Origin: a virus
Direction: 5' to 3' (one strand)
IMG/VR virus record: IMGVR_UViG_3300042387_002754
Location: 1-21,829 of that record
Length of the DNA: 21,829 nucleotides
Position 1 is the stretch's first letter. The number at the start of each line of letters is the position of its first letter. Shown here in pieces: positions 8,890-13,736 of the stretch. Both the position numbers and the translations under genes were made by a program. The notes below the pieces were generated by a model. The model had not been told where the DNA came from, searched no databases, and was given only the letters and a program-made list of their open reading frames with translations.

Positions 8890-9080
8890 TTCGCGCCCTC
8901 CTTTTCATATTTGCCATTTTTCCAGAGCCACACTTCCTGCTGTGCCGTTTCAAGCGCCGCCGCCTCTTCCTTGGCTACCTTGCGCAGCGACCGGATCACG
9001 GCAGTCAGCTCCATGTTGTCGCTGATGAGCTTTTCCACCTCCGATTTGAGGCGTTTGTTTTCTTCGATGATTTCTTTCAT
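8886..9080 (-). CDS. Short coiled-coil protein
   Basis: 64 residues from ATG at 9080, which overlaps the RusA-like stop (ATGA). A longer in-frame reading to 9218 shadows the RusA gene. The protein is one long helix with heptads (MKEIIEENKRLKSEVEKLISDNMELTAVIRSLRKVAKEEAAALETAQQEVW), probably a dimer, ending in EKEGAK. The final codons contain the SD (GGAGG) for the following gene. No DNA-binding motif is visible. Function unknown. Confidence 0.7.
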   Translation of the reverse strand: MKEIIEENKRLKSEVEKLISDNMELTAVIRSLRKVAKEEAAALETAQQEVWLWKNGKYEKEGAK

Positions 9081-9463
9081 GGGTGCGTGATTTCGATGGT
9101 GGTCATTTCGAGGTATTTCTTGCCGACTTTCTCTTGGCAGAATTGGAGTTCGACGCTGGCCGGGTCGTCGTCCGGGATGAGGGCGGCGTATCGGATTTGG
9201 TCGATGAGAGGTTTGCAACCGCCTGCGAAATTATCGGCATCGAGGAGGCGGCAGGCGTGGCGTGTAATGCGGAGAGTAACGCGGCCCGTGCGAGTTGTTT
9301 TTCGCGGTGGCTGGCAGTCCAGTGTTTGCCGAATAGCCGGTTGAGGCTTGGGGTCAGGTATCCGGGCAGGGTGAGATGAATGGGTGATTTCTCGGGCATA
9401 GGAGCCGTCTGGTTGCAGGGTGTATCCGAGGCGTTCAAGGTCGTGTTGGGTGAAGGTTGGCAT
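9077..9463 (-). CDS. RusA-like Holliday junction resolvase, C-terminal core in this frame
   Basis: The 128-residue frame from ATG at 9463 ends with an evident RusA-type core: 'RLLDADNFAGGCKPLIDQIRYAALIPDDDPASVELQF' (about 74-110). It has the Asp-x-Asp-Asn, Lys and paired Asp residues that bind metal in this family. RusA enzymes are dimers that cut four-way junctions, here probably resolving replication or recombination intermediates before packaging. The N-terminal 25 residues (MPTFTQHDLERLGYTLQPDGSYARE) look coding. Residues about 28-62 are Pro/Arg-rich and look like a shadow. Over that stretch another frame carries the N-terminal motif expected of RusA (see the next entry). The active product may therefore need a frame switch, or the two forms may be alternatives. 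Confidence 0.75.
   Translation of the reverse strand: MPTFTQHDLERLGYTLQPDGSYAREITHSSHPARIPDPKPQPAIRQTLDCQPPRKTTRTGRVTLRITRHACRLLDADNFAGGCKPLIDQIRYAALIPDDDPASVELQFCQEKVGKKYLEMTTIEITHP
9275..9399 (-). other. RusA N-terminal segment in the alternative frame
   Basis: From ATG at 9399 a different frame reads 'MPEKSPIHLTLPGYLTPSLN' then 'RLFGKHWTASHREKQLARAA', which has the Pro-Ser-x-Asn and basic features of RusA N-termini. Left of about 9275 this frame turns into Ser/Thr/Arg-rich shadow sequence, where the -1 frame holds the catalytic core. A one-base backward step at GAAAAAC (9297-9303 region) would join the two into one protein of about 108 residues. An ATG at 9438 is an earlier in-frame start. 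Confidence 0.5.
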
Positions 9464-9488
9464 AGGAAAACGGGAAAAAACGGGGGTG

Positions 9489-9692
9489 CCGGAAATGCCG
9501 GAAAAGAGGGGCTGTGAAACCTAACTGCGCTGAGAAGGAAGATAGGAAAATTGATTTCCTAACATTTAATATGAAACATCCGGCCAATCCGGCGTTTCCG
9601 GCATAAATAGCCCTCAAAATGCCTTTTTTGGGTATCTCAAGAAAAAGGATTCTTTTTCTTTCCGGCATTTCCGGCGCGGGAAACGCCGGATT
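9489..9692. repeat. Cluster of inverted iteron-like repeats, candidate replication origin
   Basis: This lies in the 248-bp gap (9464-9711) directly after the primase-helicase gene. TTTCCGGCATTTCCGGC occurs at 9658-9674 and as its exact reverse complement at 9489-9505. AATCCGGCGTTTCC occurs at 9587-9600 and in reverse at about 9678-9691, with extra CCGGC units beside them. Between these lie two AT-rich dyads: TAGGAAA/TTTCCTA (9543-9561, 5-base centre) and AAGAAAAAG/CTTTTTCTT (9639-9660, 4-base centre). GC-rich iterons around AT-rich dyads beside the replicative helicase suggest an origin. No convincing gene lies here. Confidence 0.6.
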
Positions 9693-9711
9693 CTTTGGAC
9701 ATCTTTTCATT

Positions 9712-12144
9712 TCAGGCAGAGAGTCCGAAGGCGTCATTCTTCTCCTCCATTTTGAGTTTGATTCCGTGAATCGTCGGGTGATCCTTCCGATCCGGCTCGA
9801 TGTGATAGCCCCGCTCGGACATCACTTTTCGGAGTTGGCGGGTTCCTCGGTAGCGTGGCTGTTCGCCGTTCTGGTCGCACCAGATGGCGTAGGTTTTCGA
9901 CAGCGAGCCGATCCCGCAGCGCCCGGTGATGTCCTTCTCCGTGCATTCGAGGAGGAACGCACCGAACTGGTCGGATTCCTCCCGATAGTTCCGTGTCGCT
10001 TCCACCACTTGGGGCGGTGGGCGAAGGCCGATGTCGCGGCTTTCGAGAAGTCCACGGATCGCCCAGTTGAGAATGCCGGCGGATTCCGCTTCAAATTCCC
10101 CGAGGATTTCATGGCGGTCGCGGCGTTCGTTCTCAGGGATTGTTTGGGTGAACGGGATCATGTGGACGCGTCGCCAGATTCCTTCGTCCGTGCCTTCGAC
10201 ATCCGGCTTGTGGTTTCCCATGAGCCAGAGTTTATGGGTCGGGAAAAAAGCGTAAGGTTGCTCGAATGGACGGCGGGCATTGATGGCATCGCCGCCGGTG
10301 ATCGCTTTCACCTGGGAGTCAGCCAGCTTGCGCTTCTCGGGGATTTCGTCCGTGAGAACCACCCGCTTGCCTTCCATCGAGGCCTTGTAATAATCGAAAT
10401 TATTGTCCGACTTGGCAGCGAGGAGGGCGGCAATCGGGACCGTGGTCATGAGGTCGCCAAGGAGTATTTTGAGCACACCGAAGAGGGTGGATTTGCCGTT
10501 GGCGCCCTTTCCGTAGGCAAAAAAGAGGGCGTCGTGGTGGACGCGCCCGGTCAGCGAATACCCGAAGGCACGCGCCAGATAGACGCGCGTCTCGACATCC
10601 GGCATGAAGCGGTTCAGGAACGCATCCCACTTGGGACACTCTGCCGCTGTGTCGAAATTGATCGGTGAGCGGGTCGTCGCATAGTCCGAGGCGCGGTGTT
10701 CGCGGAAAATGCCCTCGGCAAAATCCAGCGTGCCATTGAGCACCACGAGAATCTCTGGGTTGGCGTCAAAAGCCGTCGCCGGGAGGTTCATTTCCGATTT
10801 GGCAATGCGTTCGACAGACGCCAGATATTCCGCATGGCAGAGACGATGGCAGCGGTCCTCGAGGCCCTTGATCTCCTTGATGCGCGGGTCCTTCTTGTCA
10901 TCCTCTGCCGGATGCGCCTTCATTTCAGCCCGCACCGAGTCAGCTACCCGCTGATAAACCTCTGTGAGCGTGTCGGAAATATCGAGAAGCGTCGTGTTCC
11001 CATTGTCCCGCCGCCATAGCCCGTCCTCGTAGGTCATCCATGTCTTGGCGTGTATATTCCAAACGCGCAGGCCCTTTCGGAGTTCTGCCCATAGGCGGGC
11101 GTCTCCCTTGTGGGCCTGCGCGTAGGCCACCATAATCCTTTCGCGGGAAATCTCGGTCGGGATCGCTGCCACCTCCCCACCGGCCAGCGGATCTTCTCCC
11201 TCACCTGGTCCACGGGTTGAGTCGGCAAATCGAATCCGGCCCGCCCAGCGTTTCCGCCGCCATGCCTCACGGGCGTCGAATCCGTGCTCACTGGCAATGT
11301 GTGCCAGCGTTCCAACTCCCACCTGTTTGAGGCGTGCCTTGTGCTTGGATGCGTATTCGCCATCCTTCTCCTCCGGGGACCACTGATGCAAAAGCCTCGC
11401 ACCGTCCGCCATCGGCAGGACGCTCCACACTGCGGAGGCAATTTTGAGCCATGTATCGTAATCCGGGCGCGGTGGTATGTAGCGCAGCATCTCGGCAATG
11501 TCCGCCGCTGTCGTCTCCACCGGTGGACGCCACACCTCACGCTCCGGCATTTTGTCCGGCACGGGGATCGGTTGGTAAATGTCCGAGGTCTCCATGTCCG
11601 GATCGTAGGACACGAAGCACAGGCGCATCGGGTCCTTCGTCGCCTTGTCGAGCTTGAGCTTATGCTTCTCGGAAAAATGAAGTTCCGCCGCAAACCACGA
11701 ATCCTTGTGCCGCTCGGGATCAATTGATACCACCGCCTTGAGTCCCTGCCCGGATGGTCCCACGAAAACCGCGCCCACATAGGGATCGGCGAGGAGTTCC
11801 GCCCGCTTGGCGCGAACCACGGAATCATCGGCGAGGATCGGGTTATCCTTCAGGTCAAAATCCGCCTGGAGCCATCCGCTGTGCGTGATCGCCTTCGCCT
11901 CGGGTGAAAGGTCACGCTCACGGGAGAGGCAATGGCAGGAAATGGTTACGGCTGGGAGGTCACGCTTCTTGGCTGTGTAGCGCGGCTCGTCTCCGCGCTT
12001 GAGGTGTTCGCGCAGGATGTCCACCTGCCGCTGCCACCGCCCATCCTTCACACCTTGAAAGAATGCCTCCAGCGTGATCGCCTCGTCCGGTTCGTCCGCG
12101 AAGGCGTTGGAGAAAATTGAGATATTCGTCTTGAGTGTATTCAT
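9712..12144 (-). CDS. Primase-helicase, D5-like with VirE/BT4734-type N-terminus
   Basis: 810 residues from ATG at 12144, immediately after the upstream stop (TAAATG). The N-terminal ~200 residues look like the primase-associated BT4734/VirE-N type, with 'WLQADFDLKDN' (about 91-101) and 'GPSGQGLKAVVSID' (129-142). Residues ~210-290 match a PriCT-2-like linker (AEMLRYIPPRPDYDTWLKIASAVW). The C-terminal half is a D5-family SF3 helicase with Walker A 'GKGANGKST' (545-553), Walker B 'VVLTDE' (595-600), 'MGNHKP' (642-647) and 'GIWRRV' (655-660). It should lay primers and unwind phage DNA from its own origin, most simply the repeat cluster just downstream. Phages of this type do not need host DnaB loading. 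Confidence 0.92.
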   Translation of the reverse strand: MNTLKTNISIFSNAFADEPDEAITLEAFFQGVKDGRWQRQVDILREHLKRGDEPRYTAKKRDLPAVTISCHCLSRERDLSPEAKAITHSGWLQADFDLKDNPILADDSVVRAKRAELLADPYVGAVFVGPSGQGLKAVVSIDPERHKDSWFAAELHFSEKHKLKLDKATKDPMRLCFVSYDPDMETSDIYQPIPVPDKMPEREVWRPPVETTAADIAEMLRYIPPRPDYDTWLKIASAVWSVLPMADGARLLHQWSPEEKDGEYASKHKARLKQVGVGTLAHIASEHGFDAREAWRRKRWAGRIRFADSTRGPGEGEDPLAGGEVAAIPTEISRERIMVAYAQAHKGDARLWAELRKGLRVWNIHAKTWMTYEDGLWRRDNGNTTLLDISDTLTEVYQRVADSVRAEMKAHPAEDDKKDPRIKEIKGLEDRCHRLCHAEYLASVERIAKSEMNLPATAFDANPEILVVLNGTLDFAEGIFREHRASDYATTRSPINFDTAAECPKWDAFLNRFMPDVETRVYLARAFGYSLTGRVHHDALFFAYGKGANGKSTLFGVLKILLGDLMTTVPIAALLAAKSDNNFDYYKASMEGKRVVLTDEIPEKRKLADSQVKAITGGDAINARRPFEQPYAFFPTHKLWLMGNHKPDVEGTDEGIWRRVHMIPFTQTIPENERRDRHEILGEFEAESAGILNWAIRGLLESRDIGLRPPPQVVEATRNYREESDQFGAFLLECTEKDITGRCGIGSLSKTYAIWCDQNGEQPRYRGTRQLRKVMSERGYHIEPDRKDHPTIHGIKLKMEEKNDAFGLSA

Positions 12145-12405
12145 TTATTGATTTTTCTTCTGGTCCCATCGTTGCAACCGGCGCTCGAATCTCGTCCAGC
12201 GCATGTATTCCATTTCATCCATAGCCCCATCGCGGTGCAGGAGATCGGCAAACCAGCCACCGAGCATGGCCATTCCCCATCCACTGCTTTCTGTATGGTG
12301 TCGGCTTTCAAAAGCCTCTTGCGGCCATTGCTTGAGACGCTGCCGCCAGTAACGGTGCTTGTTTTCGTTTGGGAGTGTTCCAAATAGCTCCAGTTGAGTG
12401 CTCAT
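12145..12405 (-). CDS. Small replication-module protein with sliding-clamp-binding motif
   Basis: 86 residues from ATG at 12405, overlapping the helicase stop by 4 bp. The protein opens 'MSTQLELFGTLP': QLELF at residues 4-8 matches the QL-x-LF consensus used to bind the bacterial beta sliding clamp. The rest is rich in Trp and Arg (YWRQRLKQWPQEAF, WGMAMLGGWFADLLH, MRWTRFERRLQRWDQ) and helical. I do not recognise a family. Its place between a Pif1-like helicase and the primase-helicase fits a protein that brings the host clamp to the phage replisome, or one that captures the clamp against the host (inference). Confidence 0.7.
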   Translation of the reverse strand: MSTQLELFGTLPNENKHRYWRQRLKQWPQEAFESRHHTESSGWGMAMLGGWFADLLHRDGAMDEMEYMRWTRFERRLQRWDQKKNQ

Positions 12406-13736
12406 TTCAGATTCTTGTAAAAATTGATTGCCGCCTCGCTCACATGAACGCCCTTGATCCAGTCCTTGAGGTAAAGCCCACTGAGCGAACGCAGACGGGA
12501 AAGCGCCACATACGCTTGCCCCGGCTCACGAGCGGCCCGGATGTCAATATGGGCGCTGTTGAGCGTGAGACCCTGTGATTTGTGTATGGTCAGCGCATAG
12601 GCTGGGCGAAGAGGGATTTGTGTCATGGTCGCCGAATCCTCGCGCTGCGGGTCAAATTGGGATGACCGCTTGGGGATGTTGACCGTTTCCCCGTTGTCGA
12701 ACCGCACCCACACCGATTCCGGCTCCATGTCCTGCACGGTCCCGCAGAGGCCATTGACCACCGTGTGCTTCTGGGTTTTGTCTTCCTCGTCTGGCACTTC
12801 CATGTTGCAAGTTGCCATCACGCGCGCCCCGCGCTTGATCGTGAGGTGTGTCGGGGTGATCGAGTTCTTGGCGAGGAAGTCCGCCTCGTGCTCGGCTCCG
12901 GTGAAGTCGGCTTCATAGCTCGCCTCGGGCGATTCGATTTCCCCGATCTGGTAGGCATTCCACTTGTCCACCTGGGCGTTGTGAGTCATCAGGCGCACCA
13001 CGCGCCGATCGACAAACATCTTCACCCGGCTCGAGAGCGTATCCGCCACCGCCTTGGAAATGCGCCCCTCGCGGAAGTTGTTCAGCGCCTCGGTGAAGAG
13101 GGGTTCCTTTTGGCGGTGAATCTGCGTGAGGTAGGCATTTCGGAATCCCGCCCCGCGCCATGCCTCAGAGGCAAAAGCCCAGTCGTATTTTCCATCCTTG
13201 GCCACCGGAGGGAGTTGGAGAAAGTCACCGACGGCCACGAGTTGGATGCCGCCGAAGGGTCGGTCAGTCTTGCGGATCGCGCGGCAATGAAAATCGAGGT
13301 AGTCGATAATCCGCCCCGGCAACATGGAAATCTCATCGATGACAAGGCATTCCGCCGCCTTCACCCGAGCAAATGCCGAATGGCGAGAGAACGGCATCGG
13401 CTTCTTTTGAAGGAAGGCCAAATAATCCTCGAATTTCTGCCCCGGCGCAGGCCCCAGCGCCATGCCTGCCCATCGGTAGATCGTATGAGCTGCGATCCCC
13501 ACGCCGGCATTCTTGCGAAATTGGTCTTGGAGGTTCAGCGCAGCGATCCCCGTGGTCGCGCAGACATCCACCCGACCGAATGCCTGCCCGATGTATTGCA
13601 GGAGCGCGGTGGATTTCCCCGTGCCTGCCATACCGGAGAGGAAGACATTTTCACCGGATTGGATAAGATCGACCGCCGCCGCTTGTCCTGGCGAGAGCCG
13701 GATCGCATTCTCCGCAGGGAAGCGCTTCACCGTCAT
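12402..13736 (-). CDS. Pif1/RecD-like SF1 helicase
   Basis: 444 residues from ATG at 13736, overlapping the previous stop by 4 bp with the SD lying in a TTE repeat. Motifs in order: Walker A 'GMAGTGKST' (35-43), 'CATTGIAA' (59-66), Walker B 'LVIDEISML' (131-139), motif III 'VGDFLQLPP' (169-177), motif IV region 'LTQIHRQ' (203-209), 'LTIHKSQGLTL' (382-392) and 'QAYVALSRLRS' (407-417). These are the hallmarks of Pif1-type 5'-3' helicases, which clear structured or protein-bound DNA and assist recombination. At 444 residues it is a compact version. It is probably co-expressed with the primase-helicase. Confidence 0.92.
   Translation of the reverse strand: MTVKRFPAENAIRLSPGQAAAVDLIQSGENVFLSGMAGTGKSTALLQYIGQAFGRVDVCATTGIAALNLQDQFRKNAGVGIAAHTIYRWAGMALGPAPGQKFEDYLAFLQKKPMPFSRHSAFARVKAAECLVIDEISMLPGRIIDYLDFHCRAIRKTDRPFGGIQLVAVGDFLQLPPVAKDGKYDWAFASEAWRGAGFRNAYLTQIHRQKEPLFTEALNNFREGRISKAVADTLSSRVKMFVDRRVVRLMTHNAQVDKWNAYQIGEIESPEASYEADFTGAEHEADFLAKNSITPTHLTIKRGARVMATCNMEVPDEEDKTQKHTVVNGLCGTVQDMEPESVWVRFDNGETVNIPKRSSQFDPQREDSATMTQIPLRPAYALTIHKSQGLTLNSAHIDIRAAREPGQAYVALSRLRSLSGLYLKDWIKGVHVSEAAINFYKNLK

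Follow-up and report, generated by a model that had tools for sequence, protein, structure and literature searches.

The non-coding gap directly behind the primase-helicase gene of this phage carries an array of 9-bp repeats whose layout is conserved in relatives while their core sequence is rewritten in concert, and the class of the core is tracked by a single residue, 787, of the adjacent primase-helicase. From homology of layout with characterized systems the repeats most likely represent the DNA replication origin of the phage. We hold it to be highly probable that this gap is the origin, that the adjacent primase-helicase is its initiator and that the tip of the initiator's wing reads the iteron core. 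The origin itself would belong to an already known type; the new part, and the one that is surprising to a specialist, is a natural one-residue specificity series.

The window, i.e. the whole stretch of DNA analysed, is a 21829-base viral record of 43% AT overall and possibly a fragment of a larger genome. The initial annotation had placed a candidate origin in a gap at 9464-9711 directly 3' of the primase-helicase gene, and these coordinates are correct, the gap being bounded by an ORF end at 9463 and by the primase-helicase ORF at 9712. The true repeat unit of the gap is the exact hexamer GCCGGA/TCCGGC at a 9-bp pitch and, in primase-gene orientation, the full 9-bp unit is TGCCGGAAA with close variants and GCCGGA as its core (Table 1). 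Nine hexamer positions are present, eight of them exact; the ninth (9676-9681) reads GCGGGA, which mismatches the class of the window and is the core of another class. Counted from the primase stop codon, and with plus and minus units marked by sign, cores start at 25-, 34-, 40+ and 49+ (cluster I), at 113+, 122+ and 131+ (cluster II) and at 213- and 222- (cluster III, the positions of which match in relatives), with the inner clusters II and III facing one another across a stretch of 63% AT. The four exact tandem hexamer pairs at 9-bp pitch in the gap were reached in 0/5000 dinucleotide shuffles of it (maximum three, observed once), other 248-bp stretches of the record (n=341) contain one such pair at most, and a search of six records found no tandem iteron pairs outside the origin gap.

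Table 1. Coordinates and strand of the origin gap elements and of the adjacent primase-helicase gene in the window
Feature	Position	Strand	Description
Iteron cluster III	9488..9502	+	Two 9-bp units with GCCGGA cores on + strand (9488-9493, 9497-9502)
AT-rich spacer, clusters II/III	9503..9578		63% AT; contains non-conserved dyad 9543-9561
Iteron cluster II	9579..9602	-	Three 9-bp units, cores 9579-9584, 9588-9593 and 9597-9602, GCCGGA on - strand
Iteron cluster I, first half	9661..9675	-	Cores 9661-9666 and 9670-9675
Iteron cluster I, second half	9676..9690	+	Cores 9676-9681 (odd, GCGGGA) and 9685-9690 (GCCGGA)
Primase-helicase gene	9712..12144	-	810 aa; D5_N, DUF5906, PriCT_2, BT4734-like_N; proposed initiator
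C-terminal winged-helix domain	9715..9972	-	About residues 725-810; AF2 model
Wing-tip codons R786 K787 D788	9781..9789	-	Proposed base-reading residues

A 17-bp unit (9488 and, inverted, 9659) and a 14-bp unit (9586 and, inverted, 9679), each described previously as occurring twice in opposite orientation, are both present, but reading the gap in these terms masks the underlying 9-bp unit: what had been regarded as a symmetrical layout unlike simple direct iterons consists of simple 9-bp direct iterons arranged in inverted clusters. Two perfect dyads pointed out in the initial annotation also exist (9640-9659 and 9543-9561) but are not conserved in the alignment of relatives, and are therefore probably incidental; they were dropped as functional parts.

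To survey relatives, IMG/VR and GTDB species genomes were scanned, yielding 24 viral loci plus a single contig from a Spartobacteria MAG, with more loci at lower identity. The main family comprises 29 loci including the window: 18 near ones, with primase identities of 91% or more, and 11 distant ones. Repeats were present directly 3' of the primase in 29/29 main-family loci; their lack next to related primases would, by the initial annotation, have refuted its proposal. A blind repeat detector returned a period of 9 for these 29 loci, with 2-4 exact tandem pairs in each, whereas the highest count in 20 shuffles of each locus was 0 or 1. Nine unit positions are identical across the 18 near loci, L003 being one base off from position 113 on, and in distant loci units are fewer or shifted. 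The distance between facing clusters, measured from the pair's second plus unit to the first minus unit, is about 90-97 bp in the main family, with values of 86 or 94 in L046 and no assignable value in L021.

Additional Verrucomicrobiota genomes (387, 213, 372 and 273, in overlapping sets) yielded loci L115-L125, of which L115 is the contig of L026 and L123 is a partial match outside the repeat survey. In L116, L117, L119 and L120 the primase gene is followed by 9-bp repeats of other sequence (in L116 the detector found one exact tandem pair), suggesting that a repeat layout behind the primase is widespread. No repeats were seen 3' of the primase in L118, L121, L122, L124 and L125, nor by the repeat detector behind the primase of L054. 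ACCGG-type repeats at an 8-bp rather than 9-bp pitch lie 3' of the primase in L056, L058, L059, L061, L062 and L064-L067, and L057, which is close to this group, carries repeats of another kind that lack a clear tandem pitch. A search with a conserved-spacer DNA pattern returned 34 stretches; 19 lay outside known contigs, and none of these 19 contained a primase relative. Because their cores cannot be set in register, L054, L055, the L115-L125 set and the period-8 group within L056-L067 were omitted from the code table relating wing residues to cores. Rows of this table are partly dependent, L016 and L017 being near-copies and L046 and L048 having a common wing and gap, and L006 is without its first three residues (contig end).

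Whilst the layout is kept in the 29 loci, the core sequence changes in concert. Near loci carry the cores GCCGGA (5), GCGGGA (8), GCAGGA (2) and GCGGCA (3), and distant loci GCGGGA (3), GTCGGG (1), GCCGCA (1), GCCGAG (1), GCGGAG (3) and GGTGAC (2). CCGGC, previously taken as the key unit, is thus not an essential part since relatives swap it in concert. An identical change of base 3 is seen at six unit positions (40, 49, 113, 122, 213 and 222) in 18/18 near loci; base 3 at position 131 follows the core class too, except in the GCGGCA class, so that 7/9 unit positions follow a new core, with the outermost minus units (25 and 34) lagging behind. Two GCGGGA units are retained at positions 25 and 34 in L013, which belongs to the GCAGGA class, and each of the five GCCGGA phages, including the window, holds one other-class unit (GCGGGA in three, GCAGGA in two). 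Judged by their sequence, such units look like leftovers of earlier specificities.

Core classes are not clearly clustered on a tree of primase residues 1-700 (15 changes; shuffled mean 17.0, and as low in 15/200 shuffles). The nearest row to the window, L020, is 99% identical over residues 1-700 yet belongs to another core class, the two proteins differing at 18/810 residues, 5 of which lie within the last 36. L004 and L007 differ at 14/810 residues and have the cores GCGGGA and GCAGGA, respectively, and a series of near-identical primases is formed by L004 (GCGGGA, N787), L006 (GCCGGA, K787) and L007 (GCAGGA, I787). An initiator with many binding sites can acquire a new specificity only if every site changes along with it, and how this comes about is a general problem; such sets of near-identical primases that differ in their iterons amount to a natural mutant series and make the problem testable.

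The primase-helicase matches D5_N (4.3e-19), DUF5906 (2.9e-12) and PriCT_2 (5e-06) and also PHROG primase families. No significant Pfam family was found for the window's own C-terminal domain, a Pox_D5 match to this domain was obtained in 9/22 rows (best 1.9e-06), and searching the PDB with a sequence profile of the domain gave chance matches only. An AF2 model of residues 690-810 is a winged helix (block pLDDT 88-91 for residues 730-799), with predicted helices at 745-758 and 767-777, wing strands at 781-784 and 790-797, and residues 786-788 at the wing tip. A full-length model was poor (pLDDT 61.7) and was set aside as too weak. Fold comparison of the domain model placed the RFX1 DBD first (1dp7, Z 8.8); the ASFV PrimPol C-terminus gave Z 8.5, and 1ka8, the P4 origin-binding domain, gave Z 7.0 with an rmsd of 3.6 over 77 aligned residues, a Z below 8 being one that may mean a common arrangement. 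Scores near 8 for such a model may reflect shared fold only.

Across 138 variable columns of the 17 full-length near primases, residue 787 accounts for core class with an NMI of 1.000, the next column being 803 (0.702), and it remains perfect when L006 is added (18/18 near loci). It is the sole perfect column among 600 variable columns of nine genes (at least 10 loci and three classes), the next best reaching an NMI of 0.828 based on 10 loci. In the near clade the residue at 787 goes with base 3 by the rule K:C, N:G, I:A and S:G, which is degenerate as Asn and Ser both accompany G. The codons used are AAA/AAG (K), AAC (N), ATC (I) and AGT (S), such that K-N and N-I are separated by one nucleotide, and AAC and AGT by two (one if the N codon were AAT).

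When rules derived from the near loci are applied to the distant ones, base 3 is predicted correctly in 8/8 rows with a known residue, the other three distant rows having residues at 787 for which there is no rule (R, G and G). Presence of K or R at 787 corresponds to C at base 3 in 29/29 rows; among 254 usable columns none does better, and 799 comes second with 2 wrong. Independent pairs on starred branches agree in 5/5 cases for the K/R-C link (sign test p 0.0625, the test being unable to reach 0.05 as there are just 5 such pairs), and likewise in 5/5 for N/S with G. The relation between residue 788 and base 5 is no strict code, because three residues (G, H and K) all accompany A; in distant rows it is right in 4, wrong in 2 (L046 and L048, representing one wing) and without a rule in 5. 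L021 combines K787 and N788, which no near locus does, and its core GCCGCA is as both rules predict. In L046 and L048 the wing tip is R-G-N and the core GGTGAC, against the residue 788 rule; this wing tip and core may resemble those of human RFX and its half-site. The pattern at 787 and 788 would fit general preferences of side chains for bases: where base 3 is C, Lys or Arg would contact the G on the other strand; where it is A, Ile would meet the methyl group of the opposite T; and Asp or Glu at 788 would contact the C that pairs with G.

The main rival to direct reading by the wing is that the origin is real but the link to residue 787 arises by hitchhiking, the primase 3' end and the origin recombining together with no base contact. 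The scatter of core classes over the primase tree points in this direction, as do the 5 of the 18 differences between window and L020 (810 residues) that fall in the last 36, and the linked columns 799, 803 and 808, which partly track core class. However, columns closer to the origin than 787 track worse, similar spacer haplotypes (clusters II-III) span core classes with flanking units still matching residue 787, the rule is valid in lineages 51-76% identical to the window, and K arises together with C in separate lineages. We consider hitchhiking unlikely and direct reading of the core by the wing tip the preferred interpretation.

Instead of serving as an origin, the repeats could control transcription of the replication operon as an operator or attenuator array, or could be a terminator. 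Initiators of the kind proposed here may also act as regulators, and one terminator-like site is present on the + strand at 9670-9690. This reading appears very improbable: the count of terminator-like sites equals the shuffle mean, no sigma-70-like promoter was found in 9300-9900, the same place is annotated as rep_origin in phages A2 and phiadh, and it is the origin in PICIs (PMC6092414). Recognition of the repeats by another phage or host protein, e.g. in partition or packaging, is the least probable reading: tandem 9-bp arrays do have other roles, such as the TcpK boxes at oriT (PMC6137059), but the best column in eight neighbouring genes has an NMI of 0.83 (10 loci, seven letters; next 0.66) and the downstream gene varies among loci of one core class.

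Cumulative GC skew, proposed in the initial annotation as a check, lends the origin no support, as six records disagree and show no consistent origin signature. The window's skew switches sign at about 10-11 kb, close to the primase gene, where the cumulative curve has a maximum (near 11 kb). A replication origin usually sits at the minimum, and the polarity of this turning point is thus opposite to the usual pattern.

The closest known systems are of the SaPI/PICI Pri-Rep and SCCmec Cch2 type, which have (PMC6092414, PMC7581432) a D5-type helicase initiator with a C-terminal dsDNA-binding domain, an origin directly 3' of the initiator gene, and two iteron sets flanking an AT-rich stretch, the counterpart here being clusters II and III around 9503-9578. 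The window likewise has a D5/SF3-type helicase and primase region with a C-terminal winged helix (in the model) and, directly 3' of the putative initiator gene, a repeat-bearing gap as presumed origin. In contrast to these systems, the window is a phage-like record and no known satellite, it has 9-bp units at nine positions with an extra inverted cluster I, and its family shows repeated natural core switches with the wing residue.

P4 alpha, a primase-helicase whose C-terminal winged helix binds origin repeats (PMC4234260), would be comparable to the window's protein with its modelled winged helix, the structural match to 1ka8 reaching no more than Z 7.0; the P4 primase is described in the same source as of Toprim type. 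The pRN1-type origin is there depicted as a large stem-loop without iterons, from which the window gap differs in having iterons. For RFX1, whose DBD (1dp7) is the best fold match, PMC4333399 reports that reading of the major groove falls to the wing rather than to the recognition helix; RFX1 is a eukaryotic transcription factor, and a binding mode shared with the window domain is presumed. TcpK of pCW3, also a winged-helix protein, uses its wing to read tandem repeats of 9 nucleotides, but it acts at a transfer origin and is no primase (PMC6137059).

In Lactobacillus phages A2 and phiadh a P4-family primase gene is likewise followed directly by repeats, with unit sequences and spacing other than those of the window, and the A2 primase is 31% identical to that of the window over half its length. 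Their rep_origin annotations (A2 32208-32717; phiadh 13084-13469) cover the primase 3' end and the stretch behind it and, together with the layout conserved in relatives, support the candidate origin. Related geminiviruses have different iterons with matching Rep determinants, but geminivirus Rep is a rolling-circle protein of unrelated fold. Covariation of an initiator DNA-binding domain with iterons is also described for PLE RepA/ori and ICP1 Odn in PMC8263062; unlike the window's protein, PLE RepA belongs to the RepA_N family, with long semi-palindromic iterons and whole-module swaps. The same paper reports that ICP1 Odn copies the PLE RepA DNA-binding domain and cuts the PLE origin iteron-dependently.

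We infer iteron binding, melting, origin activity and a direct contact between residue 787 and a base. In the proposed mechanism the C-terminal winged helix of the primase-helicase would bind the 9-bp iterons, with the wing tip (786-788), rather than the usual recognition helix, reading the core such that base 3 is recognised by residue 787 and base 5 with the help of residue 788. At a distance of ~90 bp, the two facing clusters would each receive a helicase assembly, one on either side of the AT-rich stretch at 9503-9578, which by analogy with the SaPI/PICI layout is the probable melting region, and the initiator assembled on these clusters would melt it and load its own helicase. Initiator assembly, melting and own-helicase loading have been proposed for SaPI Rep and Cch2 (PMC7581432), and the PICI layout (PMC6092414) suggests the same melting and loading scheme. 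Specificity would shift via single-nucleotide codon changes at 787, with seven of the nine units following.

More generally, we lean slightly towards the view that the wing tip of D5/P4-type primase-helicases is an evolvable residue-to-base code in which a single-nucleotide switch is followed by stepwise iteron rewriting. A wing-tip residue that predicts the core suggests how phages may change their replication-start password and, by way of speculation, such switching may be an escape from co-infecting phages, satellites, origin-directed nucleases or origin mimics of the ICP1 Odn kind. If true, the iterons of uncultured phages with such an initiator would be predictable from sequence, and phage/satellite incompatibility groups would be readable from genomes. 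A search confined to open-access papers found no report of a wing-residue code for such origins.

In named phage and plasmid records with P4-family primases, 6/10 have an 8-mer that recurs four or more times within the 400 bases surrounding the end of the primase gene, and a 7-mer occurs at least 4 times there in 17/17 Firmicute phages, a set that includes three of the ten named records (JNU_P9, A2 and SP15-1). JNU_P9, C3.1 and CL2 have a common wing tip and a common iteron. The primases of T25 and R18.1 are ~97% identical to that of JNU_P9, with strongly different wings and different iterons: T25 differs from JNU_P9 at 26/766 residues, 8 of them in the last 36 and including R745M and N746D, with GTGACGG replaced by ATGACGG, and R18.1 at 27, 15 of them in the last 36, with another wing and the iteron AGGGAGG. 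This pattern in distantly related Lactobacillus phages speaks for wing and iteron being linked more generally, but yields no residue-to-base code for these phages.

The gene beside the origin is exchanged among relatives irrespective of core class. In the window the ORF at 9077-9463 has a weak RusA-like match, and in L003, L004, L008 and L019 a different ORF, presumably RuvC-like by motif, occupies this place. Upstream of the primase, and separated from it by an 86-aa ORF with no family match (12145-12405), lies a PIF1/Dda-like helicase gene at 12402-13736.
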